64,000 bases of DNA, from positions 71,843,227-71,907,226 of the forward strand of contig NC_081556.1 of the NCBI RefSeq assembly GCF_963082655.1, in the 5' to 3' direction. Origin of the DNA: Stomoxys calcitrans (lineage: Eukaryota; Arthropoda; Insecta; Diptera; Muscidae). Under the pieces are notes generated by a model. It had not been told where the DNA came from and ran no database searches. It was given only the letters and a program-made list of their open reading frames with translations. The translations under genes and the position numbers were made by a program. Within the stretch, counting starts at the first letter, position 1. Every line of letters starts with the position of its first letter. Shown here piece by piece: positions 2,330-61,903 of this stretch.

Positions 2330-3370
2330 AGAATTTTTCATCCGATTTTGATGAAATTTGGAACAGGGAGTTTTGGTTTGTTGAATATAGTCTAGATTGG
2401 ACCATAATTCGTATATAGCTGCCATATTGGCCGATTTCCCGATATAGAGAGTTGAGCTCATAAATGGAGCTTTTTTTATCCTATTTCGATGAAATTTGGA
2501 ACAGTGAGCTGTTTTAAGCCTACCGTGATCCTACACGAATATGTTCCACATCGGACCATATTTAGATATTACTGCCATGTAGACCGATCTGCCGATTTAG
2601 GGTCTTAAGCCCATAATATCCTCATATATTCCCCGATTTTGAGGAAGTTAAGAACATTTAGTTGAACATTGAGGGCTCGTGTTGTTTCAACCAGCGATGG
2701 TTTAAATCGGGTAATTTTTACATATGGCTTCCAATCTGCCGATTTAGGGTCTTATGCCAATAAATGCAGGATTTATTATCCGATTTCGCTGAAATTTGAA
2801 ACACAGAGTTGTATTATGACTCTTGTTTTCTGTCCTGAATATGGTACTATATATATATTTACATATAACAGCCACAGTGAGTTTTTGTAAAACTCCCGAC
2901 CCGAATATGGTCCAGATTAGATCTTACTACATATAGCAGTTTCATATATAGGCCGATCTGCCGATTTGAGGGCTTTAGCCCACAAAAGTCACATTTATTA
3001 GCCGATTTCGGTGAAATTTGGATCAGTGAGTTGTATAAATTCTCTTGAGGAACCGAATATGAACCAAATCGGACCATATTTAGGTATTGCTGCCATACAG
3101 ATCGATCTGCCGAATTAGGGTCTCGAGGCCATAGAGGCACATTTTTACCCGATTTCACTGATTTTTTACATTGAGTTGCGTTAGGCCCTTCGATTCCGTG
3201 CCATATGGACCTATCTCCCAATTTAAGATTTTACTGGATTGGAAAATCGAATATGATCCGGACCAGTCAATATATGGATATAATAGTGGAAATTAGATTG
3301 ATGACTAATTTTCGTGGTGGTGGGTATCTAAAGTTTGACACGGCCGTACTTAATATATTTTTTTTTATGT
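2330..3370 (+). mobile_element. DINE-like element, second subfamily, degraded
   Basis: Repeated ~150-bp modules carry GACCGATCTGCCGATTTAGG and ATCCGATTTYGCTGAAATTTG. The copy ends in GGTGGTGGGTATCTAAAGTT followed by a decayed GC hairpin and ACTTAATA (about 3316-3366), the plus-strand 3' end of this subfamily. It lacks a clear 5' head. The same modules are better preserved at 34114-35526. Confidence 0.5.
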
Positions 3371-3663
3371 CAATCGTCATGCACAAGGAGATTCTGAATT
3401 AGTTTCTAAAAACAGATGTTGTTTCTGCTCAGCATTTTAGTTTTCGCATTTATGAGTAAAACCTACAAACCATTGCTTCTGGATGACGATTCACAATTTA
3501 TTTTGCTAATTTGATTAAAAATTACAATAATTCGTTTAAATGCCGTAAATGCCGTTTAAGAACAGATAGAATTCAATTTGAATTTGCATTTTCAGAAAAT
3601 TTGCAGGTTTTTCCCTTATTTTTGGAATGAATGTCATCGGCATTTAAAGAGGACTATATCGGT
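3371..3663. other. unassigned AT-rich spacer
   Basis: I see no coding potential, repeat boundary or structural RNA here. It separates a degraded DINE-like element from a SINE. Confidence 0.4.
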
Positions 3664-3915
3664 ATATCGGCAGAAGGCCACCGTAGCGCAAAGGTTAGCA
3701 TGGCCGCCTATGACGCTAAACGCCTGGGTTCGAATCCTGGAGGGAATATCAGAAAATTTTTCAGCGGTGGTTATCCCCTCCTAATGCTGGCGACATTTGT
3801 GAGATACTTAGGTACTTATCATTGAGCTTAAAATTGAATCGGACAGCACTCATTGATATGTAAGAAGTTTGCCCCAGTTCCTTAATGGAATGTTCATGGG
3901 CAAATTTGCATTTGC
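3664..3915 (+). mobile_element. tRNA-headed SINE, copy 1 (longest)
   Basis: A tRNA-like head begins near GCCACCGTAGCGCAAAGG at about 3677. It carries a box A-like TAGCGCAAAGGTTAGCATG and a box B GGTTCGAATCC at about 3728-3738, the internal RNA polymerase III promoter arrangement. A unique body follows (TCAGCGGTGGTTATCCCCTC) and continues to ATGGGCAAATTTGCATTTGC. The head lacks a proper 3' acceptor half, so it is not a tRNA gene. Related copies lie at 8174-8262, 11262-11500 and 15706-15815. Confidence 0.75.
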
Positions 3916-4110
3916 ATATCGGTATATAGATCGATTCAGATTATACTAGAGACTGATGCTGGAAGTCATAACAGATCTCGTTGTGTCAATTTTTAACCAA
4001 ATCAGGTGAGAATTGAGGCAGCTAAGAGCTTAACGCTATCGTGATTTCGACAGACAGTCTAACGAACTGCCGGTCAAGGCTAAATCGAATCAGGAGGTGA
4101 TTCTAAGCTA
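3916..4110 (-). repeat. DINE-like fragment
   Basis: It has the AATTTTTAACCAAATCAGGT module and a decayed ATTTCGACAGACAG tract in minus-strand order. Neither end is preserved. Confidence 0.4.
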
Positions 4111-5385
4111 ATCGGTATACTTTTCAATGGGTCAAGCTCTTCTCCTTCTTAGCGTCACAAACATTTGCACAAAGTTATCATACCCTCTATCACAGTGGAA
4201 GCGTAGGGTATACGAAGCAAACCAAAGAGACAAATATATAACATCTCATTCATTTAGCCATATTCTGAAAAGTTGTCGTGGAAATACTAGTGGAATTTTC
4301 ATTGACTGACAAATGCTGTGTTTAAGGCCTTGTATAATGCAATATGCCAGAAGTTGAGTGTGCATGAGCTATCTTGTAACGTCCACTTTAATTGTTATTT
4401 GGGAGAAAGGGTAATTGTTTCCCGTCGCTGGGTACCATCTGAATACCACTGCCCAAATTCATCAAATCTATTCAACCATATAATTATATCTCTAAATTTT
4501 GCCTTCCGTTTAAATAAATATTCAATTTCAAAAATATATTGATGGCAACAAGTATGAATCAAAGAGCAATGAGTAATAGGCCTTGAGAATAAAGTACCCA
4601 AATGAATCTCCGATAATTTGGAAACAATTCTTACCTAGCAGCAAAACTTTATTGTATAATTTTAAAGCTGTGAAAGTGTAACATCCATCATTCTAGAGTT
4701 TTCCATAAATGACTTGCCTAAAATAATAATTATTGTGCAACCCTGTGAAATCCTTCTTTGCCATATGTAAAAAGACATCACTATGCCACCACTGCGAAAG
4801 TCAGTCCTACCTGTTCTTTTATACTCCTTGGTAAGGACGAAATCTCTATGTATGAGAATGTGCACTTGTTGCCACGAATAGTCTACTTAAAAGCTCATGT
4901 CACTGTCAGATAAATGCCATTATGTTGGCTGGATCAAGGAAAAGGGAATCAATGCCCATGAAACAAAAGACTACAATACAAACCACTCTTGTAATTAATG
5001 ATTAAAGGAATCTGGAAAATAAACTATAATGTTCTTCTTTCGCCCTTGCTGCCAACTCTTCAAAAGAACCCACTTGTAATTTGTCTAAAAGAAAAACAAC
5101 AACACATAAGAGGCCGAAACAAAAGAAGAACTTAACGATTCTGATGCGAAACCAAGACTATTGCAACATTACAGAGTTATGGTTGTAACAACACAAATTA
5201 AATTGTTTCTGACGTTCTCTTAGTCAGACCCACATATCATCGGACCATTCTCAGCATTACAAAAATGAGTATGTATAAAAATTATACTTGGAACTTGTTA
5301 AATGAAATTAGTACGATTCATAATTGCTTAGTTTTTATACCAAAAAAATTTAATCTCGCCATTTTTTTGTAGGATGGTTTGGTTT
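4111..5385. other. unassigned low-copy stretch
   Basis: About 1.3 kb with no recognisable protein domain. The open frames here, all under 75 codons, show no family motif. A TATACCCTC...GAGGGTATA-like end near 4185-4215 may be a short DINE head remnant. I see no splice-bounded exon, RNA gene or transposon terminus. Confidence 0.35.
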
Positions 5386-12519: not shown

Positions 12520-13275
12520 CAAATTTGCGGTATAATCGAGGCAACGATAAGAATCCAGGAAGGAATGGAAGAGGTTTCCGATCGGATACCTCAGAAGACT
12601 CTAGTGGTCGAGTGCGAGGCATTGCTGCCAGCGGCATCGTTTTAGATTGACGGAATCCTGGTATTGAAATCTGGAAGATCATGCTACACCGATGAATCAA
12701 AGCTAGTGACCAGAGTTAGCTTGGGGGTCTACATTGAGAACCTAGGAACTGAGATCGGATTTAGACTGACTGACCATAATACGGTCCTGCAGGCAGAGAT
12801 CCGGGCGATCACGGAATGCGTGTAGTGGTGTGGTATTAACACGAGCACGTCGAGTGTAAACGTCTTTACGGACAGTAGACTGGCCATCAAGGGAATAACA
12901 ACCAGGACGGTGAGGTCACGAACAGTCTTGCAGTGTTAAAAGATGATTAACGCCTACTCTGAGGATGGCACAATCCGCATTGTTGATTGCCGGGTCATAG
13001 TGGAGTAAGGGGGTATGAAAGAGCAGACGATGAAGCTGGAAGGTCAGAGGACTGCCGTCAATAAACTTGGTTAACTCGAGGCCTTTTGGGGCGAGGCAGT
13101 CCGAGTTCAGCTTCAGACCGACCGTTCGTCGCTCAGGGCGTGAGAGACCCAGAATGTGAGAAAACGAGGCTTTATCTGAAAGGAAGTAAGTAGGAGGTCA
13201 GTATAGATTTCGGTATCATAACAGGACACATGCGACCCACTTATGTAAAATCGATGCGACAAGTGATAGCATGTA

Positions 13276-13882
13276 AAGGGTGATTTTTTTGAGGTTAGGA
13301 TTTTCATGCATTAGTATTTGACAGATCACGTGGGATTTCAGACATGGTGTCAAAGAGAAAGATGCTCAGTATGCTTTAACATTTCATCATGAATAGACTT
13401 ACTAACGAGCAACGCTTGCAAATCATTGAATTTTATAACCAAAATCAGTGTTCGGTTCGAAATGTGTTCAAATTTTGACAAATTTTGTTCAGCGATGAGG
13501 CTCATTTCTGGTTGAATGGCTACGTAAATAAGCAAAATTGCCGCATTTGGAGTGAAGAGCAACCAGAAGCCGTTCAAGAACTGCCCATGCATCCCGAAAA
13601 ATGCACTGTTTGGTGTGGTTTGTACGCTGGTGGAATCATTGGACCGTATTTTTTCAAAGATGCTGTTGGACGCAACGTTACGGTGAATGAACACATTTCG
13701 AACCGAACACTGATTTTGGTAATAAAATTCAATGATTTGCAAGCGTTGCTCGTTAGTAAGTCTATTCATGATGAAATGTCAAAGCATACTGAGCATCTTT
13801 CTCTTTGACACCATGTCTGAAATCCCACGTGATCTGTCAAATACTAATGCATGAAAATCCTAACCTCAAAAAAATCACCCTT
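13276..13882. mobile_element. palindromic Tc1-superfamily deletion element, copy 1, with TA duplication
   Basis: Inverted arms of ~195 bp (about 13276-13470 and 13689-13882) start AAGGGTGATTTTTTTGAGG and are flanked by TA at 13274-13275 and 13883-13884. Both arms contain the start of a transposase gene, MNRLTNEQRLQIIEFY, facing inward. Only the core (13471-13688) is single, encoding FSDEAHFWLNGYVNKQNCRI and GGIIGPYFFKDAVGRNVTVN, the catalytic-domain region with the first Asp. The rest of the transposase is missing, so the copy depends on an enzyme supplied elsewhere. It lies inside a LINE. By domain style it is a Tc1-like family, possibly the DD41D type (inference). Confidence 0.85.
13485..13687 (+). 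pseudogene. transposase core fragment, Tc1 superfamily
   Basis: This internal reading frame carries FSDEAHFWLNGY (first catalytic Asp followed by Glu), WSEEQPEAVQELPMHPEKC, VWCGLYAGGIIGPYFFKDAV. The frame then runs into the inverted arm, where the codons are antisense to the N-terminal coding segment and therefore meaningless. It lacks the DNA-binding domains and the last two catalytic residues. The identical segment lies in reverse in the second copy (38001-38503). Confidence 0.75.
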
Positions 13883-14145
13883 TATAAGATGATGAGACGT
13901 TGGAGCATTTCGTATGTCAATGCGTGGCTTTCGCAGCCACGTAGGTAGGGACACAATACCGGACATGAACCAACTTAAGAGCGTGGAATGGAAAACAATT
14001 GGGGATTTTGTAGGTAACACGGGATTCCTAACTGAGATTTTCCTTTTCGAGGTTACTTTTTAGTATTTAGAGTGCACAACAAGCCGATTTCTGGTTTAGG
14101 TGCATGTAGTAGTAGTATGGGGCGAATTAATATCAACCTTACCTA

Positions 14146-20190: not shown

Positions 20191-21436
20191 AAAAACAAGT
20201 AAAAGCGTGCTAAGTTCGACCGGGCCGAATCTTATATACCCTCCACCATGGATCGCATTTGTCGAGTTCTTTTCCAGGCATCTCTTCTTAGGCAAAAAAA
20301 GGATATAAGAAAAGATTTGCTCTGATATTAGAGCGATATCAAGATATGGTCCGGTTTGGACCACAATTAAATTATATGTTGGAGACCTGTGTAAAATGTC
20401 AGCCAATTCGAATAAGAATTGCGCCCTTTGTGGGCTCAAGAAGTAAAATAGAGAGATCGATTTATATGGGAGCTGTATCGGGCTACATACCAATTCAGAC
20501 CATAATAAACTCGTATGTTAATGGTCATGAGAGAATCCGTCGTACAAAATTTCAGGCAAATCGGATAATAATTGCGACCTCTAGAGGCTCAAGAAGTCAA
20601 GATCCCAGATCGGTTTATATGGCAGCTATATCAGGTTATGAACCGATTTGAACCATATTTGGCACAGTTGTTGGATATCATAACAAAATGCTACGTGCCA
20701 AAATTCATTCAAATTGGATAAGAATTGCGCCCTCTAGAGGCTCAAGAAGTCAAGACCCAAGATCGGTTTATATGACAGCTATATAAGGTTATGAACCGAT
20801 TTGAACCATACTTAGCGCAGTTGTTGGATATCATAACAAAACACGTCGTGCAAAATTTCATTCCAATCGGATAAGAATTGCGCACTCTAGAGGCTTAAGA
20901 AGTCAAAACCCCAGATCGGTGTATATGGCAGCTATATCAGGTTATGGACCGATTTGAACCATACTTGGCACAGTTGTTGGATATCATAACAAAACATGTC
21001 GTGCAAAATTTCATTCCAATCGGATAAGAATTGCGCACTCTAGAGGCTCAAGAAGTCAAGACCGAAGATCGGTTTATATGGCAGCTATATCAGGTTATAA
21101 ATTGATTTGAACCATACTTGGCACAGTTGTTGGATGTCATAACAAAACACGTCGTGCAAAATTTCATCCCAATCGGATAAGAATTGCGCACTCTAGAGGC
21201 TCAAAAAGTCAAGACCCAAGATCGGTTTATATGGCAGCTATATCAAAACATGGACCGATATGGCCCATTTACAATACCAACCGACCTACACTAATAAGAA
21301 GTATTTGTGCAAAATTTCAAGCGGCTAGCTTTACTCCTTCGGAAGTTAGCGTGCTTTCGACAGACAGACGGACGGACGGACGGACATGGCTAGATCGACA
21401 TAAAATTTCACGACGATCAAGAATATATATATTCTT
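20191..21436 (-). mobile_element. DINE-like element with about five tandem modules
   Basis: The 3' end (AACAAGTAAAAGCGTGCT, hairpin TTCGACCGGGCCGAA) is at 20191-20229. Modules with ATCGGTTTATATGGCAGCTA repeat at about 20610, 20763, 20918, 21070 and 21225, a spacing of about 153 bp. The GACGGACGGACGGACATGG tract follows, and the copy stops at about 21436 without its head, directly against the truncated 3' end of a LINE. Confidence 0.7.
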
Positions 21437-22656
21437 CTCACAGCTTCTGCAAAAGTCGTTGCTGGCAACCTTCAGTCCGTCAGCATGTTTTCCGATTAGA
21501 CACAATGACTGAGACGTCTGTTCTAGCCAATGACAGCAAAGCAGTAGATCTCTTCAAATCTAGATTAGACCTCGTAGTTTTGGATTGCTCACAGCCCCTT
21601 CTTTGTGACCATCTATCATTCGTTGTCCTTCGGGCCTGGTCCTGAAAACTTAGTTTACATGTCGCTAAAGCATTCCCACAGATTCTACTAGTCTCGCAAG
21701 CTCGTCCGCTTTACAATTCCCTGGCACCCAGAACATGAAGTTTGACTTGTTCAGCCATCTCGAGATCTGCGACAGTTGAGGGCCTGGAACATCGGATATT
21801 GTATTAAGGATAACACAGTGTCCGTAGCTGCCACATGACCTAAGAGAAAGCTCCCTTTGCCTCATGGCAGTGGTCACTGCAATTTGGATAGCCACAATAT
21901 CCAGGGGCATATGATGTAGCATTAAATTCAGTGCATCAGATGGTGTCGTCCTCAGACCGGCTGTGATGCACAAACAAGCCATCCTTTGGATCCGATTAAG
22001 TATTGAGCAGTAGGTGCACTTTTGAAGCGCCGTCCACCAGACCAAAACACCATATAGTATTATATGTCTGACAACTGCAATATATACCCAATGCATGGCA
22101 CGCGGTCTAAACCCCCAACTTTTGCCTATGGCTCTCTTCCAGGTGTATAGGGCAAGAGTTGCCTTTCTTACTCTTTCCAAAATGTTGGATTTAAAGTTCA
22201 ATTTCCTGTCCAGCAAAATACCCAGGTATTTTGCGCTTTCTGTAAATGGAACATTCTCTCCACCCAATGAGACAGGTTCCACTGTAGGCAACTTTTATCT
22301 CCTGTTGAAAAGAACTACTTCTGTCTTGCACGGATTTATACCCAGACCACTTTCGGTAGCCCACTTTGCTATTGCACGTAGAGCTTCCTGAAGTATATCT
22401 CTTAGAGTGCGGGGAAACTTTCCCCTAACCGCAATTCCCAAGACATCAGCATACGCGACCACTTTTACGCCTGTTTCTTCCAGAGACAATTATAAATTGT
22501 TAATGGCTATATTCCAAAGTAGAGGAGACAGTACACCTCCTTGAGGTGTTCCTCTGCTGACCCATCTTTTTAGTTCCACAGATCCCAAGCCTACCGTAAT
22601 GCATCTTTTAGTAAGTAAGTTATTAATAAACCTTCTTCCTTCATGATTGACGTCGC
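21437..22656 (-). pseudogene. LINE (NLR-1): RT fingers-to-thumb and remnant RNase H, 3' part of a split copy
   Basis: The minus strand carries RT motifs. At 22490-22675 is GRRFINNLL then GTPQGGVLSPLLWN. At 22295-22489 is VVAYADVLGIAV, where the second Asp of the catalytic YADD is Val. At 21665-22291 is the RT tail (AKYLGILLDRKLNFKSNI; LYGVLVWWTALQK) followed by GNCKADELARL, an RNase H remnant with most of that domain deleted. A Cys cluster (NDFCRSC) ends at 21437, where it joins a DINE-like element. The RT copies element RNA at the nick. The YADV change and stops make it dead. Its 5' half resumes at 27471 beyond the Transib insertion. Confidence 0.85.
22652..22656. repeat. 5-bp target-site duplication CGTCG (left)
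   Basis: CGTCG immediately precedes the CACAGTG terminus. The same CGTCG follows the opposite terminus at 27471-27475. Transib elements are known to make 5-bp GC-rich duplications. Confidence 0.85.
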
Positions 22657-24852
22657 ACAGTGGGCCAAATGGCAAAAAAATTGGAAATAAGTCTACAACT
22701 TTTTATCTGTTGATTTTAGCCATACAAAATGTTCTAGACATTTGTAGAGGAGGACATAGGCTTTCAGAAAAGTGCTGTTGTTGGTCCATATCTTTAATAC
22801 AGGGTGAGCTACAGGGTGTGAAAGTTGACCACTTTTGACTTCTCCAAGCTTCTGGGGGCCATAACTTTTGATCTACTCAACCGATTTACATGATTTAGGA
22901 CTCTAGAGAAAGAGCTTGACAAGATCTAAAAAACTTATGCATAAAGTACCATGCCATCGTGTACTGTTAAGGAGTTATGAATTGTTTAATTTTAAAATAT
23001 GAAAATTTGGCCTTGGTTTTTTTCAGTGTTTTTTAAATAACTCCGTCAATTTTAAAGCTATAAACTTCATACTTCACACAAATTATGCCAGCATATGTGT
23101 GCATAAAATACAAAAGGAATCACGTGAATATCTTTGGCGGTTTAAAAATGGCATCGTTTTCAATATGAAAAATATTTTTTTTGTCAAAAAATTGCAAAAT
23201 TTTTCAAAAAAGATACTCCCATTTCCTTTAAGTTTTCGCAAACTTTGGCCGTCAAAGCATTATCATTTCTTTCCATTTTCACAAAGTCGAGGTATTAAGA
23301 AAAGTTTTAAGTGCTAATTTGGCTAATTTCGATATCAAACAACACCGTTATCTTAAGACCAAAATGGCCAATTTTTTTACTAAACTTCAAAAGTTTCTCA
23401 CTGGAAAAAAAGTTCCACGGGGATTTTTTCGCTTTTTTTGAACTTAAATGAAAGCTTAAAATGTTCCCAACATTTTAAGGTATGTCTCGCCATATCCTAG
23501 CCATAAATGAGATCGTAGCGATCAAAATACTGAAAAAAGTCAATTTTCAAGTAGTGCTATATTCATTGCTAAAAAACAAGTATTACGTCACATTTTATTG
23601 CAAAGATGTTAAATAAACTTTTATTTGGTAACACTTCTTCTACAAAACACAAAAAGAATCATGGAAATATCTCTATTCTATTCCATTTTATGGAACCGGC
23701 AATAAAAAAGTCAATTTTTCAAAAAAGTCGAATTTCCCAAATTTTGTTTTTGTTGTCCTAATTGCACATGACACACTATAGCCATATTTACGCAACATAC
23801 CTTATCGTAAAGGAAATTTTCATACCTTTCCAACGATGTATAAAACATTTCTCAACTCGGATTCTATCTACTCTAAAATTCATTTACACTTCATTAAACT
23901 CTATATAAAAATGTCTATTTGTGAAATGGAACCTTATATGGGGCCTACACTAAAACATTGATAGATTTGCCCAGGGTTTACAATACAAATGTGTTAGAAT
24001 AAAAAAAGGTCTCCTGCCAAAGTTTAAAAAAATTGGAATAAAAATATGTGTTTTAGAGCGAAAACACTTCGCATCGGCGTGCGTTTATATGTATATTAGC
24101 TACTCCCAAAATAAAAAAGCATTTTAGTTTTGTATTATTTGATTTTATTCTCTACCAAATAATCTAAGGTATCAAAATTTAAAAGCTCTTTAATTTGAAT
24201 GGCATCGGGATCGTCCTTATCTATATCGTCACATATTTTTGGTAGCCATTTAGTTCTGATGCTGTATAGTACCGGATCAGACGATAACAATAAATATTGA
24301 AGTAAATCATAATTTTGGTTAAATTTGGTGCTCTTTCGGGTATTGAAAAGCCGGAACTGTTTAACATCTCTATTACGGGATTCCTGAGCTTCTTCTGTAA
24401 GTTCTCCTAACGGAAGTATGTTGTATTCCACAATTTCCTTGCCATGATGTAAGACTTTATGTACTGTCGGTGTTAAAGCTTTCCACGAATATAAATCAGA
24501 TAAAATGTTTTTTGTGTCATTACTATAAGCTTCAAATTTGGTTGAATTTATCATCTTTTTGCTATTGATTACAGCCAAAATCACTTTGAATCGTCTTAGC
24601 AAGTGTTCATCAAGACCGGTTATTTTAGATGTCGATACGGGGTCCTCAAAAAACCGCCTTGCCGAGTTGCCATCATTTGTGCTTCCGTATCCGTAAAGAG
24701 GTTTATCTATTATAAGTCCCTTTTGTTTAAACTCCAACTGGATTCGATTCTTCTCTTCCTGCCTCATTTTGTGAAGATCTTGGTTGTTTCTAGCAGAGAC
24801 ATCGCGGTTTCCAGGGCTAGTCCGATATTTAAGGTCATACGATAAATGCAAA
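22657..24852 (-). repeat. left arm of Transib inverted repeat
   Basis: This arm is in the original element orientation on the minus strand: transposase C-terminus (24135 upward), stop codon, then ~1478 bp of AT-rich noncoding sequence to the CACAGTG end at 22657. The homology to the right arm stops exactly at 24852/25274. Confidence 0.9.
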
Positions 24853-25280
24853 CAATACTCCATGAATCGAATTCTACAGTGCAGGGGCGAAATACCGAAA
24901 TTGAGCGCATTTTCGTTTACTAAATTTTCATCAGACTTGTCCTCGAATTGCCCATTCTTCTTGCCACAAATATTGCATCTCCAATTGGACATAACGCCAG
25001 TTAATGCGTTTGCCACCTTTCCATCGATCATAGTGAGTTGTAGTTGAAACGAAACTTTTATATTTCTTCCCAATTGGTTTATAACAATCATGGGTAATGC
25101 AGCAATTTCTTCCTTTATTTCGTTCACCAAAGATCGTGTTGTGTTCCGGTCTTCCTTTGTATACTCAAACCGAATTGGGCGACATAAATATTTTGACCCA
25201 GGTGTTCTATTTATCCATATATCTTGAAATGCATTTTCTTTCGATGATGAAGATTGGTCCTTGTACAATCTCATTTGCAT
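24135..25280 (-). CDS. Transib transposase, C-terminal part (N-terminus missing)
   Basis: An uninterrupted 381-residue frame. Residues 78-90 (SFQLQLTMIDGKV) contain D86, which fits the second catalytic Asp of the RAG1/Transib DDE enzymes. Residues 102-105 (CNIC) start a zinc-binding element. GYGSTNDGNSARRFF (197-211), VHKVLHHGKEIVEYN (273-287) and LPLGELTEEAQESRNRD (289-305) are Transib signatures; E300 aligns with the third catalytic residue. Family enzymes cut at CACWRTG ends by hairpin formation and insert with 5-bp duplications. The ATG at 25280 is accidental: its first codons lie in the right inverted arm, so the true N-terminal part, with the first catalytic Asp, has been lost. As it stands it should be catalytically inactive. 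Confidence 0.85.
   Translation of the reverse strand: MQMRLYKDQSSSSKENAFQDIWINRTPGSKYLCRPIRFEYTKEDRNTTRSLVNEIKEEIAALPMIVINQLGRNIKVSFQLQLTMIDGKVANALTGVMSNWRCNICGKKNGQFEDKSDENLVNENALNFGISPLHCRIRFMEYCLHLSYDLKYRTSPGNRDVSARNNQDLHKMRQEEKNRIQLEFKQKGLIIDKPLYGYGSTNDGNSARRFFEDPVSTSKITGLDEHLLRRFKVILAVINSKKMINSTKFEAYSNDTKNILSDLYSWKALTPTVHKVLHHGKEIVEYNILPLGELTEEAQESRNRDVKQFRLFNTRKSTKFNQNYDLLQYLLLSSDPVLYSIRTKWLPKICDDIDKDDPDAIQIKELLNFDTLDYLVENKIK
24853..25273 (-). other. unique loop of the Transib palindrome
   Basis: The only single-copy segment of the element, coding on the minus strand for about residues 3-143 of the truncated transposase (second catalytic Asp and the CNIC zinc element). It separates the two arms and would be the loop of a hairpin transcript. 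Confidence 0.85.
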
Positions 25281-25991
25281 TTATCGTATGACCTTAAATA
25301 TCGGACTAGCCCTGGAAACCGCGATGTCTCTGCTAGAAACAACCAAGATCTTCACAAAATGAGGCAGGAAGAGAAGAATCGAATCCAGTTGGAGTTTAAA
25401 CAAAAGGGACTTATAATAGATAAACCTCTTTACGGATACGGAAGCACAAATGATGGCAACTCGGCAAGGCGGTTTTTTGAGGACCCCGTATCGACATCTA
25501 AAATAACCGGTCTTGATGAACACTTGCTAAGACGATTCAAAGTGATTTTGGCTGTAATCAATAGCAAAAAGATGATAAATTCAACCAAATTTGAAGCTTA
25601 TAGTAATGACACAAAAAACATTTTATCTGATTTATATTCGTGGAAAGCTTTAACACCGACAGTACATAAAGTCTTACATCATGGCAAGGAAATTGTGGAA
25701 TACAACATACTTCCGTTAGGAGAACTTACAGAAGAAGCTCAGGAATCCCGTAATAGAGATGTTAAACAGTTCCGGCTTTTCAATACCCGAAAGAGCACCA
25801 AATTTAACCAAAATTATGATTTACTTCAATATTTATTGTTATCGTCTGATCCGGTACTATACAGCATCAGAACTAAATGGCTACCAAAAATATGTGACGA
25901 TATAGATAAGGACGATCCCGATGCCATTCAAATTAAAGAGCTTTTAAATTTTGATACCTTAGATTATTTGGTAGAGAATAAAATCAAATAA
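25254..25991 (+). pseudogene. duplicated Transib transposase C-terminal fragment
   Basis: The open frame of 245 codons is a byproduct of the inverted duplication: the first seven codons read loop sequence in the wrong strand and the remaining residues repeat the C-terminal domain of the minus-strand frame with no amino-acid change. It holds the third catalytic residue region (EEAQESRNRD) but neither Asp, so it cannot act as a transposase alone. Confidence 0.85.
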
Positions 25992-27470
25992 TACAAAACT
26001 AAAATGCTTTTTTATTTTGGGAGTAGCTAATATACATATAAACGCACGCCGATGCGAAGTGTTTTCGCTCTAAAACACATATTTTTATTCCAATTTTTTT
26101 AAACTTTGGCAGGAGACCTTTTTTTATTCTAACACATTTGTATTGTAAACCCTGGGCAAATCTATCAATGTTTTAGTGTAGGCCCCATATAAGGTTCCAT
26201 TTCACAAATAGACATTTTTATATAGAGTTTAATGAAGTGTAAATGAATTTTAGAGTAGATAGAATCCGAGTTGAGAAATGTTTTATACATCGTTGGAAAG
26301 GTATGAAAATTTCCTTTACGATAAGGTATGTTGCGTAAATATGGCTATAGTGTGTCATGTGCAATTAGGACAACAAAAACAAAATTTGGGAAATTCGACT
26401 TTTTTGAAAAATTGACTTTTTTATTGCCGGTTCCATAAAATGGAATAGAATAGAGATATTTCCATGATTCTTTTTGTGTTTTGTAGAAGAAGTGTTACCA
26501 AATAAAAGTTTATTTAACATCTTTGCAATAAAATGTGACGTAATACTTGTTTTTTAGCAATGAATATAGCACTACTTGAAAATTGACTTTTTTCAGTATT
26601 TTGATCGCTACGATCTCATTTATGGCTAGGATATGGCGAGACATACCTTAAAATGTTGGGAACATTTTAAGCTTTCATTTAAGTTCAAAAAAAGCGAAAA
26701 AATCCCCGTGGAACTTTTTTTCCAGTGAGAAACTTTTGAAGTTTAGTAAAAAAATTGGCCATTTTGGTCTTAAGATAACGGTGTTGTTTGATATCGAAAT
26801 TAGCCAAATTAGCACTTAAAACTTTTCTTAATACCTCGACTTTGTGAAAATGGAAAGAAATGATAATGCTTTGATGGCCAAAGTTTGCGAAAACTTAAAG
26901 GAAATGGGAGTATCTTTTTTGAAAAATTTTGCAATTTTTTGACAAAAAAAATATTTTTCATATTGAAAACGATGCCATTTTTAAACCGCCAAAGATATTC
27001 ACGTGATTCCTTTTGTATTTTATGCACACATATGCTGGCATAATTTGTGTGAAGTATGAAGTTTATAGCTTTAAAATTGACGGAGTTATTTAAAAAACAC
27101 TGAAAAAAACCAAGGCCAAATTTTCATATTTTAAAATTAAACAATTCATAACTCCTTAACAGTACACGATGGCATGGTACTTTATGCATAAGTTTTTTAG
27201 ATCTTGTCAAGCTCTTTCTCTAGAGTCCTAAATCATGTAAATCGGTTGAGTAGATCAAAAGTTATGGCCCCCAGAAGCTTGGAGAAGTCAAAAGTGGTCA
27301 ACTTTCACACCCTGTAGCTCACCCTGTATTAAAGATATGGACCAACAACAGCACTTTTCTGAAAGCCTATGTCCTCCTCTACAAATGTCTAGAACATTTT
27401 GTATGGCTAAAATCAACAGATAAAAAGTTGTAGACTTATTTCCAATTTTTTTGCCATTTGGCCCACTGTG
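25274..27470 (+). repeat. right arm of Transib inverted repeat, with duplicated transposase C-terminus
   Basis: The reverse-complement copy of the left arm. Its coding part (25274-25991, plus) gives the same C-terminal ~237 residues, from LHLSYDLKYRTSPGNRD to the stop after YLVENKIK, including GSTNDGNSARRFF and the EEAQESRNRD glutamate. An accidental upstream ATG at 25254 lies in the loop. About 1.48 kb of noncoding sequence follows to the terminus CCCACTGTG at 27470. Confidence 0.9.
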
Positions 27471-27475
27471 CGTCG
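27471..27475. repeat. 5-bp target-site duplication CGTCG (right)
   Basis: The direct copy of 22652-22656, immediately outside the second CACAGTG terminus. Beyond it the LINE RT coding sequence resumes. Confidence 0.85.
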
Positions 27476-29172
27476 GTTTAACATTATTGGAAGCACCTTC
27501 AATGTCAAGAAATGCTGTCATTGTATATTCCTTGACAGCGAGAGAGCCCTCTATGTAGCAGACGCTGTTTCAGTGGATTTGCCCTTACCATATACCCTCT
27601 ATGTAGCAGACCCTGTCGTGAAGGGCTGTTTCAGTGGATTTGCCCTTGCCAAATGCATGCTGCTGCCCCGACAGGCGGTCTACAGGGATCTTTGCCCCAT
27701 GATATGTTTCTTCAGCTTAAAGGATGACAGACTAATATGACGAAAATCTCTCGCCTTCGTGTGGTAGGGTTTTCCTGCTTTCGGAATGAAAATTACCTTC
27801 ATGTCCCTCCATTCCACAGGTATATATAATTCGTTCTGATACAAGCAGAGTATATCTTCCTACGCCAGGGAACCAGTCTATCAGACACAGCTTGTAATTC
27901 AACCGGTGATACATTATCAGGGCCTGGCGAATTAAAGGTGTCGAAACTTCTCATCGTCCAAAGAATTTTTGGCTCAGACCCAATTTCTCTAATAGCCTCC
28001 GACGAATGCATACCAGTGACAACCTCTTCTGGCGCCACGTTGTCCGTTGAAGAATTTCCCAGAAAATGTGTATCAACGAGTAGTTAGTGTTTCCTCACTA
28101 AACATTGTCCATACATTCTGTGACTTGTGAACATACCCCACTGTAATTGGTCTCGCGGACAGAATCTTTCTTAGTCTAGAGACCACAGATTTATCCTCTA
28201 CGGAGCTGCAGAATTCTACCAAGGATTTGTTCTGAGCATTTCTATAGCCCTTATATTTTCCCAGCTCAGCCTTATAGATGTCCGAATCGTGTGGTGCTCT
28301 TGTAGCTTTTGCTCTGTTGGCGATCGCTGTTTGCCTCTTGGCTTGGCACTAGGGCATGCACGCTGACACAAGCGAGTGGTCCGCTTGGCCACTATATCTA
28401 TATCCTCCGTAGTTTCCACTTCCTTTTCTGGTCTAGAAGGGGGAAACGTGCAGAATTTGTGCCGAAATTTATCCCAATCCGCCTTTTTTCTGCTGAACCG
28501 AGGGACCACTACTCCAGTATTTCCTCCAAGGCTGAAACTAGCATAACGATGATCAGAGAAGCTGTGGTCATCCAACACTTCCCAGTCGCATATTCTTCCA
28601 CTTATATCTTCCGATACAAAGGTAAAATCTAGTACCTCCTGTCTGTTCCTGGTAATAAAGGTCGGTTTATCCCCTTTATTACAAATCACCAGATAACAAC
28701 TTACAATATATTCAACCCCTTTCGTTGATATCCGAACTTCCCCATATCTGGTTATGTGCAGTAGCATCACTTTCACAATGAGTCTTTTCGTCCCTACAGA
28801 AGCAGCTTTAACCAGCGACTTAAAGTTTGAAGGCGGCATCTGTGAATCTTGTGTCATATATAGGGAAGACAGCCAGTAATGAGACTTGTTTATTTCAAGG
28901 CTGGCTACTACTAAATCTTCAGTGCTTAGCGACGGAAGAAGAAAAACATTTAGACTACTCTTTGCAAGAAAACAGGCTCAGTGTCTCCCATTCCCCGTAC
29001 TCTTGAGAAGTTTAAATCCCGAAATTCTTAGTCCACGAACCATTCCACCCCACACCCATGGTTCCTGGATAAGAACCACGTCAAATCCCCCTGCCATCAG
29101 GAGGACCTTTAGTGCCGCGGAAACGGCCTTACAATGGTGGGGATTTATCTGTAGAAACCTGACCATAGTCAA
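27471..29172 (-). pseudogene. LINE (NLR-1) ORF2: endonuclease and start of RT, 5' part of split copy
   Basis: ORF2 begins at the ATG at 29172 with MVRFLQINPHHCKAVSAALK and DVVLIQEPWVWGG, the N-terminus of an apurinic-type endonuclease that nicks target DNA. The domain continues through 28857-28216 (NRQEVLDFTFVSEDIS; DDHSFSDHRYASFSLGG, the catalytic SDH region). RT follows with GPDNVSPVELQAVSDRL near 27900 and AFLDIEGASNNVKP at the Transib junction. Frames shift several times, and a partial ~50-bp tandem duplication lies at about 27547-27649. The best family fit is the I/LOA/R1 group with RNase H (inference). Confidence 0.8.
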
Positions 29173-34113: not shown

Positions 34114-35526
34114 TTTTTTATACCCACCACCGACGGATGGGGGTATATTCATTTTGTCATTCCGTTTGCAACACATAGAAATATCCATTTCCGACCCTAT
34201 AAAGTATATATATTCTTGATCAGCGTAAAAATCTAAGACGATCTAGACATGTCCGTCCGTCTGTCCGTCCGCCTGTCCGTCCGTCTGTTGAAATCACGCT
34301 ACAGTCTTCAAAAATAGAGATATTGAGCTGAAATTTTGCACAGGTTCTTTTTTTGTCCATAAGCAGGTTAAGTTCGAAGATGGGCTATATCGGACTATAT
34401 CTTGATATAGCCCCCATATAGACCGATCCGCTGATTTAGGGTTTTAGGCCAATAAAGGCCACATTTAATATCCGATTTTGCTGAAATTTGAGACAGTGAG
34501 TTGTGTAAGGCCCTTCGACATCCTCCGTCAATTTGGCCCAGATCGGTCCAGATTTGGATATAGCTGCCATATAGACCGATCCTCCAATTTAGGGTCTTAG
34601 GCCCATAAAAGCCACATTTATTTTCCGATTTTGCTGAAATTCGGGACAGTGAGTTGTCTTAGGCCCTTCCACATCTTCCGTCAATATGGCTCAGATCGGT
34701 TTAGATTTTGATATAGCTGCCATATAGACCGATCCTCCGATTTAGGGTCTTAGGCCCATAAAAGCCACATTTATTATCGGATTTTGCTGAAATTCGGGAC
34801 AGTGAGTTGTGTTAGGCCCTTCGACATCATCCGTCAATTTGGCCCAGATCGGTTTAGATTTGGATATAGCTGCCATATAGACCGATCCTCCGATTTAGGG
34901 TCATAGGCCCATAAAACATTACCCGATTTTGCTGAAATTCGGGACAGTGAGTTGTCTTAGGCCCTTCAACGTCCTCCGTCAATACGGCTCAGATCGGTCC
35001 AGATTTGGATATAGCTGCCATATAAGCCGATTCTCCAATTTAGGATCTTAAAAGCCACATTTATTATCCGATTTTGAGAAAATTTGGGACAGTGAGTTAT
35101 ATTAGGCCCTTCAACATACTTCGTTAATTTGGCTCAGATCGGTCCAGATTTGGATATAGCTGCCATATAGACCGATCTCTCTGTTTTAGGTTTTGGGGCC
35201 ATAAAAAGCGCATTTATTGTCCAATGTTGCCGAAATTTGGGACAAGGAGTTAAGTTAAGTCCCTCCACATATTTCTGCAATTTGGTCTAGATCGATCAAG
35301 ATTTGCATATAGCTGCCATATAAACCGATCTCTCGATTTAAAGTCTTGGCCCCATAAAGGCGCATTTTTAATCCGATTGCACTGAAATTTGTGTGGTATA
35401 TAGTTCAGGTCGGTTTATTTTTATATATAATTATTAAAAAGACCAATATTTCGTTATATATATATCCGAGGTGGTGGGTTTCCAAAGTTCGGCCCGGCCG
35501 AACTTAACGCCTTTTTACTTGTTTTT
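34114..35526 (+). mobile_element. complete DINE-like element, second subfamily
   Basis: The head TTTTTTATACCCACCACCGA is at 34114. The tract TGTCCGTCCGTCTGTCCGTC lies at about 34249-34290. Modules with GCCATATAGACCGAT repeat at about 34415, 34566, 34719, 34872, 35017, 35162 and 35315 (145-153 bp spacing). The hairpin TTCGGCCCGGCCGAA is at 35488-35502 and the end is CGCCTTTTTACTTGTTTTT. Family X sequence continues on both sides, so it landed there without an obvious target duplication, as expected of Helitron-type insertion. It encodes no protein and would need a Rep/helicase in trans. Confidence 0.8.
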
Positions 35527-36989: not shown

Positions 36990-38000
36990 TCAGGAACAGG
37001 CAGGGTGTACTGATGTTATCTTTATATCAGAGGATATAAGCGGAAGGGTATACGACTGGGAAGTGTGGGATGACCACAGCTTCTCTGATAATCGTTATAT
37101 TTGTATCAGTCTTGGAGAGGATTCTGCAGGATTCCGCTAAACAAAAAAATGGCGGATTGGAATAAATATCGGCACAAATTCTGCACAGCTATCTCTTCTA
37201 GACCAGAAAAGGAAGCGGAAAGTACGAAGGACACCGACATAATGGTCACGAAGGCACTGAATGACTCGCTTGTGCCTGCACGTCCTACAGACAAAGCAAG
37301 GGGCAAACAGAGCCATGTTGGACCACAAAACTGGTTGTAAGGGCTGCAGAAAACTCTTTAACAGGGCGAAAACCACAAGGGCTCCCCACAATTAGCACAT
37401 CTTTAAGACTGAGATAGGAAAATTCAAGGGCGAGCTTCAGCTCAGTGGAGACTACATCTGAGGCCTCTAGGCTTAAGAAGATCCTATCCTCGAAACCTAT
37501 TACAGTGGAATATATTCTGAAGTAAGAGAATGTATGGACAATGTCTGGTGTGGAAACACTAAAACTACTCGTCGATACCCGGGAAACTCTCCAACGGACA
37601 ACGTGGTGCAAGAAGAGATTGACGTTAATGTGCATTCGTTGGAGGTGTTATCCTGTCTAAGTCGAAAATCCTTTGGGCGATAAAGAGTTTCGACTCTTTT
37701 ACGTCGCCAGGCCTTGATGATATATCACAGGTTGAATTACAAGCTGTGTCCGACAGACTGGCTACTTGGTTTAGCGAGATATACACGGCTTGTATCAGCA
37801 TGTCGTATATATTTGTGGGATGGAGGGACACGAAGGTAATTTTCATTCTGAAAGTTGCAAAACCTTACCACACAAAGTCGAAGATTTTCGTCCTATTAGT
37901 CTGTCATCCTTTATGCAGAAGACTCTTGAGAGGTTGATAGAAACATACATTATGGCAAAGATCCATGGAGATCGACTGTTGCGGTATCAGCATGCATATA

Positions 38001-38503
38001 AAGGGTGATTTTTTTGAGGTTAGGATTTTCATGCATTAGTATTTGACAGATCACGTGGGATTTCAGACATGGTGTCAAAGAGAAAGATGCTCAGTATGCT
38101 TTGACATTTCATCATGAATAGACTTACTAACGAGCAACGCTTGCAAATCATTGAATTTTATTACCAAAATCAGTGTTCGGTTCGAAATGTGTTCATTCAC
38201 CGTAACGTTGCGTCCAACAGCATCTTTGAAAAAATACGGTCCAATGATTCCACCAGCGTACAAACCACACCAAACAGTGCATTTTTCGGGATGCATGGGC
38301 AGTTCTTGAACGGCTTCTGGTTGCTCTTCACTCCAAATGCGGCAATTTTGCTTATTTACGTAGCCATTCAACCAGAAATGAGCCTCATCGCTGAACGGTG
38401 AATGAACACATTTCGAACCGAACACTGATTTTGGTAATAAAATTCAATGATTTGCAAGCGTTGCTCGTTAGTAAGTCTATTCATGATGAAATGTCAAAGC
38501 ATA
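38001..38503. mobile_element. palindromic Tc1-superfamily deletion element, copy 2, right arm truncated
   Basis: After TA (37999-38000) the left arm starts AAGGGTGATTTTTTTGAGG and carries the inward-facing MNRLTNEQRLQIIEFY start. The transposase core follows in the opposite orientation to copy 1, with FSDEAHFWLNGY read on the minus strand near 38400-38360. The right arm stops at CATGATGAAATGTCAAAGCA (about 38503), having lost the outer ~105 bp and terminal repeat. The shared internal structure with 13276-13882 shows that both come from one amplified deletion derivative. Confidence 0.85.
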
Positions 38504-38611: not shown

Positions 38612-39899
38612 TTTTTATACCCCCCACCATAGGGTGGGGGTATACTAATTTCGTCATTCTGTTTGTAACTACTCGAAATATTCGTCTGAAGCCCCATAAA
38701 GTATATATATTCTTGATCGTCGTGATATTTTATATCGATCTAGCCATGTCCGTCCGTCTGTCTGTCGAAAGCACGCTAACTTTCGAAGGAGTAAAAATAG
38801 CCGCTTGAAATTTTGCACAAATACTTTTTATTAGTGTAGGTCGGTTGGGATTGTAAATGGGCCATATCAGTCCATGTTTTGATATATCTGCCATATAAAC
38901 CGATCTTGGGTCTTGACTTCTTGAGTCTCTAGGGCGCAATTCTCATCCGATTTGACTGAAATTTTGCACGACGTGTTTTGTTATGATATCCAACAACTGT
39001 GCCAAGTATGGTTCAAATCGGTTCATAAACTGATATAGCAGTCAAATAAACAGATCTTGGGTTTTGACTTCTTGAGCGTCTAGAGTGCGCAATTCTTATC
39101 CGATTGGAATGAAATCCAACAACTGTGCAAAGTATGGTTCAAATCGGTCCATAACATGATGTAGTGTCATATAAACCGATCTTGGGTCTTGACTTCTTGA
39201 GCCTCTAGAGGGCGCAATTATTATCCGATATGAATGAAATTTTGCACGAAGTATTTTGTTATGACATCCAACAACTGTGCGAAGTATGGTTCAATTCGGT
39301 CCTTAACCTGATATAGCTGTCATGTAAACAGATCTGGGGACTTAACTTCTTGAGCTTTTAGAGGGCGCAATTCCTATCCGATTTGCCTGAAATTTTGCTT
39401 GACCTATCTAATTCTTACTTTCAACAACTGTGTCATATAGGGTTCAAATCGGTTCATAACCTGATATAGCTGCCATATCAACCGATTTGGGATCTTGACT
39501 TCTTGAGTCTCTAGAGATCGCAATTATTATCCGATTTGCCTGAAATTTTGTACCACGGATCCTCTCATGACCATCAACATACGTGGTTATTATGGTCTGA
39601 ATCGATATATAGCCCGATACAGCTCCCATATAAATCGATCTCTCTATTTTACTTCTTGAGCCCCCAAAGGACGCAATTCTTATTCGATTTGGCTGACATT
39701 TTACACAGGTCTCCAACATATAATTTAATTGTGGTCCAAACCGGACCATATCTTGATATCGCTCTAATAGCAGAGCAAATCTCTTATATCCTGTTTTGCC
39801 TAAGAAGAGATGCCGGGAAAAGAACTCGACAAATGTGATCCATGGTGACGGGTATATAAGATTCGGCCCGGTCGAACTTAGTACGCTTTTACTTGTTTT
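38612..39899 (+). mobile_element. complete DINE-like element, first subfamily
   Basis: The head TTTTTATACCCCCCACCATA is followed by the GTCCGTCCGTCTGTCTGTCG tract at about 38748. Modules (GCTGCCATATAAACCGATCT; TATCCGATTTG-TGAAATTTTG) lie on plus. The 3' part CACAGGTCTCCAACATATAA leads to the hairpin TTCGGCCCGGTCGAA at 39872-39886 and the end ACGCTTTTACTTGTTTTA. It is the opposite orientation of the 20191-21436 copy and keeps both termini. Confidence 0.75.
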
Positions 39900-61116: not shown

Positions 61117-61903
61117 TTTTATACCTACCACTATAGGATGGGGGTATACTAATCTAGTCATTCCGTTCGTCACACCTCGAAATTTTGATCTACGACCGCA
61201 TTAAGTATCAATATTTTTGATCATCTCGACATTCTGAGTCGATCTAGCCCTGTATGTACATCTTTCGAAATCACGATAGCGGTCGATCGCGTAAAGATAG
61301 CCGCTTGAAATTATGCACAGAAACTTAATATTAATGTAGGTCATTGGGGATGGCAAATGAGCCAAATAGGTTCAGATTTTTATATAGCTCCCGTATGAAC
61401 CGATCTCCCGATTTGACTTCTTGAGCCCCTAGTAGCAGCAATTTTCATCCGATTTGGCTGAAATTTTACACATAGTGTTCTGTTATGACTTTCAACAACT
61501 GTGCCAAGTACGGTTTCAATCAGTCTATAACCTGATATAGATCCCATATAAATCGATCTCCCGATTTGACTTCTTGAGCCCTTACAAGTCGCGATTTGAC
61601 TAAAATTTTGCACATAGTGTTCTGTTGTGACTTCCAACAACTGTTCTAAGTACAGTTGAATTCGGTCTATAACATGATATAGCTCCCATATAAACCTATC
61701 TCCGAATTTTATTTCCTGAGCCCTTACAAGCCGCGATTTTTATCCGATTTGGCTGAAATTTTTCATAAAATGTTCTATTTTAACTTCCAACAACTGTGCC
61801 TAGTACGGTCCAAATCAGTCTATAACCAGATGTAGCTCCCATATTTTAGCAGGTGGTTCCCAAGTTTCCGCCCGGCCGAACTAAGGACGCTTTTACTTGT
61901 TTA
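61117..61903 (+). mobile_element. DINE-like element, both ends
   Basis: The head TTTTTATACCTACCACTATA is followed by modules with ATAGCTCCCATATAAAYCGA and ATCCGATTTGGCTGAAATTT on plus. The end has TTCCGCCCGGCCGAACTAAG and ACGCTTTTACTTGTTTA. The tetranucleotide tract is degraded. Confidence 0.65.

Follow-up and report, generated by a model that had tools for sequence, protein, structure and literature searches.

A 64,000-nucleotide stretch of the genome of the stable fly, Stomoxys calcitrans (assembly GCF_963082655.1, contig NC_081556.1, forward-strand positions 71,843,227 to 71,907,226), referred to here as the window and numbered from its first letter, carries a palindromic transposable element of the Transib type, 4815 bp in length, at positions 22656-27470. 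This element is probably a single-copy, non-autonomous and internally rearranged derivative of a Transib family found in the same genome, and it would have formed where it now stands, through repair of the gap left after excision of a full-length copy, a template switch between terminal inverted repeats (TIRs), and end joining. In the assembly, two arms of 2197 bp enclose a loop of 421 bp (Table 1), which bears out the arm-loop-arm palindrome, with arms of about 2.2 kb, that was proposed in a preliminary description of the window. The arms agree at 2196 of 2197 positions, and in our judgement this many matching bases cannot be attributed to chance; the single difference is a G at 23251 and a T at 26875. 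The inverted repeat as detected is slightly longer (22651-24852 and 25274-27475, with 421 bp between), since the outer 5 bp on either side are the CGTCG target-site duplication (TSD), which is nearly palindromic itself and makes the apparent arms longer than the true ones. The start given earlier, 22652, is one base off, as the inverted repeat begins at 22651 and the element proper at 22656. The termini read CACAGTG...CACTGTG, and a CGTCG copy does indeed lie directly outside each of them, as previously noted.

Table 1. Features of the palindromic Transib element and its immediate flanks (window coordinates; a point marks features without strand)
Feature	Position	Strand	Remarks
Left flank: continuation of the retrotransposon's reverse-transcriptase region	21665-22650	-	Same retrotransposon as in the right flank
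TSD CGTCG, left copy	22651-22655	.	Same CGNCG-like 5-bp class as in 19 full parental copies
Left arm, 2197 bp	22656-24852	.	Parental 3' end (3153-5349 of the 5349-bp parent)
Parental 3' TIR, 1438 bp, within left arm	22656-24093	.	Limits from comparing parental copy L010 with itself and aligning the ends of 19 copies
Single mismatch between the arms, left allele G	23251	.	Right arm (26875) has A on the same arm strand; site polymorphic in parental copies
Truncated transposase open reading frame, 381 amino acids	24135-25280	-	C-terminal part of the 680-residue parental transposase, from about residue 302
Loop, 421 bp	24853-25273	-	Parental 2732-3152, transposase coding, once in element
Rearrangement junction	25273-25274	.	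2-bp ambiguity (TT common to both sides); one exact 33-mer match in genome
Right arm, 2197 bp	25274-27470	.	Inverted copy of parental 3' end
Newly recruited inverted 759 bp	25274-26032	.	Parental 3153-3911 in place of parental 1440-2731; first 718 bp coding
TIR part of right arm	26033-27470	.	At place of parental 5' TIR; parental TIRs without fixed difference over 1431 bp
TSD CGTCG, right copy	27471-27475	.	
Right flank: 5' part of interrupted degenerate non-LTR retrotransposon	27476-28857	-	Includes endonuclease open reading frame 28216-28857

The element's assignment to Transib, also made in the preliminary description, is confirmed by its one long open reading frame (ORF), which matches the HzTransib transposase (PDB 6pqn) with an E-value of 5.4e-63. 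Its match to the Pfam RAG1 profile is weak (E-value 7.8e-5, below the Pfam cut-off), its closest relative is 68% identical, and it lacks an N-terminal part that is present in its relatives. Relatives were also sought in plasmid, prokaryote-genome and viral collections, which gave either no match or pattern matches with none confirmed. The Transib-type transposase, the CGTCG duplication and the CACAGTG sequence at both ends, which resembles an RSS heptamer, are all features expected of a Transib element; the window copy, however, has no single ORF with a complete D-D-E catalytic core.

A search of the S. calcitrans genome (1.071 Gb in 297 contigs) for an intact parent, as had been suggested, was successful. 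The loop sequence occurs elsewhere in at least 40 copies at 100% identity (40 scored of 779 candidates), all 40 of them on one contig (C1); 20 were retrieved whole (L009-L028) and 20 more as pieces of 541 bases. At the point corresponding to the window's rearrangement, every one of the whole copies (20/20) and every one of the short pieces (20/20) has the parental arrangement, or 40 of 40 altogether. Nineteen of the 20 whole copies, the exception being L011, possess CACAGTG ends and matching 5-bp duplications; these 19 are 5348-5431 bp in length, with 12 of exactly 5349 bp, and 17 retain the full ORF of 680 amino acids. Their duplications belong to one recognizable class, in which position 1 is C and position 5 is G in all 19, position 2 is G in 13 and position 4 is C in 16. 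The mean pairwise substitution difference among these copies is only 0.107% (gaps left out), and their transposase aligns with that of HzTransib over residues 165-643 with an E-value of 6.8e-84. One of the copies (L016), 5431 bp long and with its longest ORF shortened to 646 residues, is presumably the one with an insertion of about 80 bp, observed in a single copy at arm position 1610.

Genome-wide, the 33-mer spanning the parental junction has 709 exact matches (364 forward and 345 reverse, with none for a backwards control), while the corresponding 33-mer of the palindrome, for which a genome search had also been proposed, has exactly one, at this locus; the uniqueness thus described holds for this one junction and for exact 33-mer matches. 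Judged from its sequences, then, the parent appears to be a young and very abundant Transib and a candidate for a recently active one beside HzTransib, its youth and its full ORFs being circumstantial signs of transposition activity.

The parental ends differ from what the preliminary description had assumed, namely that a normal Transib has different 5' and 3' halves. In parental copy L010, the two TIRs are 1439 and 1438 bp long and 99.8% identical, and across the 19 copies there is no fixed difference between 5' and 3' ends over the first 1431 bp, fixed differences starting only at arm position 1432. Like ends are therefore the normal state of this family, and the assumption of unlike halves does not apply to it. 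Because the ordinary element already possesses near-identical inverted ends of 1.4 kb, the oddity of the palindrome is smaller than first thought. Nor was a whole 5' half rebuilt from the 3' half, as had been claimed. Relative to the parent, the window copy has lost positions 1440-2731, which are 1292 bp of the 5' interior including the codons for residues 1-301, and in their place has gained an inverted copy of positions 3153-3911, which is 759 bp in length with 718 bp of it coding. The net effect is a lengthening of the TIRs from 1.44 to 2.20 kb, with 718 bp of transposase coding sequence now included in them. The two parental sequences that meet at the joint, which lies outside the TIRs, have 2 bp (TT) in common.

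This rearrangement leaves the window ORF to begin at parental residue 302, beyond the KWGCDGSSG segment that aligns to SCDGMGDVSE of RAG1, a stretch that we take to hold the first catalytic Asp of RAG1, whereas the parental transposase retains all three regions aligned to RAG1. The window element is, as its sequence indicates, a defective Transib derivative and not an autonomous Transib. Because the part aligned with that Asp is missing, the copy could move only passively, cross-mobilised by transposase from intact copies. Its TIRs extend inward into coding sequence, near-identically at both ends, reaching 759 bp past the limit of the parental TIRs, much as in elements of the Galileo type. In contrast to miniature inverted-repeat transposable elements (MITEs) or foldback families, which exist as many copies of the rearranged form, its palindrome junction is present in one exact copy. 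A second Transib nested in inverse orientation was also considered and is disfavoured, as neither a TIR end nor a duplication is found at the inner junction.

A junction that occurs only once in an assembly naturally raises the suspicion of an artefact, in which a chimeric molecule or a mis-joined repeat path would have turned a normal 5349-bp copy into a palindrome, and the presence of hundreds of family copies with near-identical 1.4-kb TIRs would favour such wrong joins. A wrong path through the TIRs, however, would account for the switch between TIRs but not for the 25273/25274 junction within the transposase gene, for which a chimeric molecule would be needed, and all 40 further loop copies that were examined are parental at this point. 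We consider an artefact distinctly improbable. One particular form of it, a read palindrome produced by a missed adapter, is rejected outright, since it would have mirrored the flank as well, and the two flanks here differ.

These flanks are parts of one degenerate non-LTR (long terminal repeat) retrotransposon on the minus strand, whose reverse-transcriptase domain is split by the element. A translation of the joined flanks, read through a single frame change and a single stop codon of this degenerate retrotransposon, matches Pfam RVT_1 over residues 5-137 (E-value 2.8e-17, 63.5 bits), compared with 55.3 bits for a 94-residue piece of the left flank alone, and the reading frame is continuous (frame 0) across the insertion point itself. 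A Pfam scan of a 44-residue joined piece by itself gave no match. Farther into the right flank, the ORF at 28216-28857 matches Exo_endo_phos_2 (E-value 1e-7). The joined RVT_1 match, together with a duplication of the family's class, shows that the element interrupts a single target. The host retrotransposon also contains, beside the insertion at 27530-27660, a short local duplication in which TCTATGTAGCAGAC...GCTGTTTCAGTGGATTTGCCCTT is repeated.

The sole difference between the arms is informative with respect to their origin. At arm position 596 (23251/26875), the left arm has G and the right arm has A, and the A allele is also found in the parental family, at 3 of 19 5' ends and 2 of 19 3' ends. 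It is most simply read as an allele from a second template or from a resident 5' TIR, rather than as a new mutation, and the arms therefore probably had two templates. By comparison, within a single parental copy the TIRs are separated by a mean of 1.00 substitutions (range 0-3), and TIRs of different copies by a mean of 2.35; in none of 10,000 random TIR pairings were the pairs as close as the true ones. Six of the 19 copies show no substitution between their own TIRs over all columns (5 of 19 when gaps are counted), and at eight chosen sites the TIRs agree in 14 of 19, a figure that overstates agreement, as these sites omit most one-sided singletons. Since TIRs of one copy are closer than random pairings, they behave as if they have a common history or convert each other. 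The one difference between the window arms is at the level that is normal between two TIRs of a parental copy, and the outer part of the right arm may be the old 5' TIR.

These same observations bear on a fold-back or sister-chromatid fusion, whereby one broken 3' half would have been copied onto itself, through a hairpin or a fusion, to generate two identical arms. The nearly perfect identity of the arms, their short asymmetric loop, and the rare G that both share at arm position 165 would all agree with such an event. The arm difference, on the other hand, falls at a site already polymorphic in the family, suggesting that two templates were involved and not a new mutation; moreover, a fusion palindrome would carry mirrored flanks, and a second step of transposition would be required to arrive at a normal duplication between two different flanks. 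This origin is accordingly given a very slim chance.

Formation in place, the reading that is favoured here, would proceed as follows. A full parent would have inserted at the CGTCG site in the retrotransposon and later have been excised by a transposase of its family, an event that we infer, after which repair synthesis, templated by a sister or homologous copy, would have restored the element from either side. Starting at the left flank, one strand would have run 2618 bp inward along the 3' end. Its counterpart from the right flank would first have copied, or simply kept, the 5' TIR, then moved to a 3' end template somewhere between arm positions 597 and 1431, in near-identical sequence, and continued into the transposase gene to a depth of 2197 bp. 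Finally, the two incomplete ends, of unequal depth, would have been joined with a 2-bp overlap. A switch from TIR to TIR would be homologous, because no fixed difference separates 5' and 3' ends over 1431 bp. In animal Pack-TIRs, template switching with short microhomology (median of 2 bp at the breakpoints) has been described (PMC8277862).

Several points weigh against this reading. An overlap of at least 2 bp is expected at 19% of random joints (P 0.19), such that the overlap seen here is not significant and provides no proof of end joining. The G at arm position 165 is common to both arms, yet it occurs at only 1 of 38 parental ends, and therefore implies related templates, a resident parent with the G at both of its ends, or the copying of one arm from the other. 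Likewise, a new mutation may have recreated the A allele at position 596. Excision and repair are steps that we infer, from a palindrome known here from the assembly alone, and formation elsewhere followed by one transposition would give the same sequence.

The last of these scenarios, in which the palindrome took shape elsewhere by the same rearrangement and was then moved here as a unit, its two like ends being acted on by the family's transposase, is unlikely in our estimation, though not negligible. The CACAGTG ends are intact and identical to the parental ends, the CGTCG duplication is perfect, and transposase could have been supplied by any of many parents, given the 709 exact junctions and the full ORF in 17 of the 19 copies examined. 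With just one exact junction match, however, this course requires that a donor copy or sister copies have been lost, have changed within the 33-mer, or are missing from the assembly, and the duplication made by the parent already accounts for the flanks by itself. The preliminary description had left open whether the symmetric form was inserted as a unit or formed in place while keeping both junctions. The single copy and the arms separated by a family polymorphism suggest that formation in place is the better fit, and insertion as a unit is not required.

Among known systems, HzTransib of Helicoverpa zea is the natural point of reference. Like the stable fly family, it has heptamer-like ends that start with CAC, GC-rich 5-bp duplications and an alignable transposase; it has been reported as a 3518-bp element (Hztransib) whose TIRs are long and whose 5-bp duplication reads GCTCG (PMC1852546). 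The parental element of the stable fly differs in its length of 5349 bp, its 1.44-kb TIRs and the 709 exact copies of its internal junction, and the window copy differs further in being truncated and palindromic. Most Transib families have been described as having symmetric TIRs (PMC8289069), and this, together with the long TIRs of Hztransib, means that long and similar ends are not foreign to Transib.

The preliminary description knew of no Transib element of the present design. That part stands insofar as no palindromic Transib was found in titles or abstract openings among the literature matches listed, a body of literature that mostly excludes subscription journals, and the same literature yielded no paper treating both Transib and Stomoxys. 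The design in general, however, is already described in other superfamilies, with Galileo and Mu killer serving as precedents. The nearest structural match found is Galileo copy 147 of Drosophila willistoni, a member of the P superfamily, which is reported to possess TIRs of 1575 and 1608 bp, including at least 545 bp recruited from the transposase coding sequence, identical flanking duplications, and an 872-bp gap of Ns at its centre, in a genome where, according to the same report, no functional Galileo copy was found (PMC4168063). The inward growth of TIRs is the same in both elements as described; in contrast to copy 147, the window element belongs to another superfamily, has abundant parents with full ORFs, and offers readable, exact breakpoints.

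Mu killer of maize, a MuDR derivative, is described as internally deleted and partly duplicated; both of its TIRs come from the end next to the transposase, two partial copies of the transposase meet in an inverted duplication, and it silences its own family in trans (PMC3440606). The window element has the same kind of architecture, with same-end termini and an inverted partial duplication of the transposase, its like ends being already parental; it differs in superfamily and in host kingdom, and it is known from sequence only. A more distant comparison is offered by long-TIR variants of Bari1 in Drosophila rhopaloa, a Tc1-mariner element, for which two identical long TIRs, previously unreported in the Bari1 subfamily, have been described; these are roughly 250 nt in length, and the available part of the report does not mention coding sequence within them (PMC4877112). 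Long identical TIRs are the shared trait, and TIR length and superfamily set the two apart.

With Mu killer in mind, a silencing role for the palindrome is conceivable. When folded as RNA in silico, the central 1421 nt form a very stable hairpin (-1008.5 kcal/mol, a value obtained with no shuffle control at that length). A faint prospect, intriguing all the same, is that the locus represents a newborn animal counterpart of Mu killer, in which read-through transcription starting in the surrounding sequence would produce a 2.2-kb double-stranded RNA, including 718 bp of transposase sequence, and the resulting small RNAs could hold in check a burst of Transib amounting to some 700 copies. If true, it would also be a dated snapshot of long-TIR growth in RAG-related transposons. 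For the present, the single-copy palindrome looks like an ordinary repair product. Its value lies in the fact that the parent, the breakpoints, the likely templates and the target duplication are all visible, which renders TIR growth by aberrant gap repair testable within the RAG1-related superfamily. The parent is in fact more useful than the palindrome, given its numerous exact junction copies, mostly full ORFs, and near-identical ends.

Other repeats also occur in the window. Two short repeats at 13269-13895 and 37994-38503 are similar to each other, with inverted arms of their own (13274-13470 and 13688-13884, 197 bp, 99% identical), and have the appearance of a MITE-type element whose TIRs measure about 200 bp. 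Finally, a unit of 153 bp is present in many tandem copies, at least 60% alike and in both orientations, at 1-2100, 20300-21370, 34290-35400, 38850-39700 and 61300-61900.

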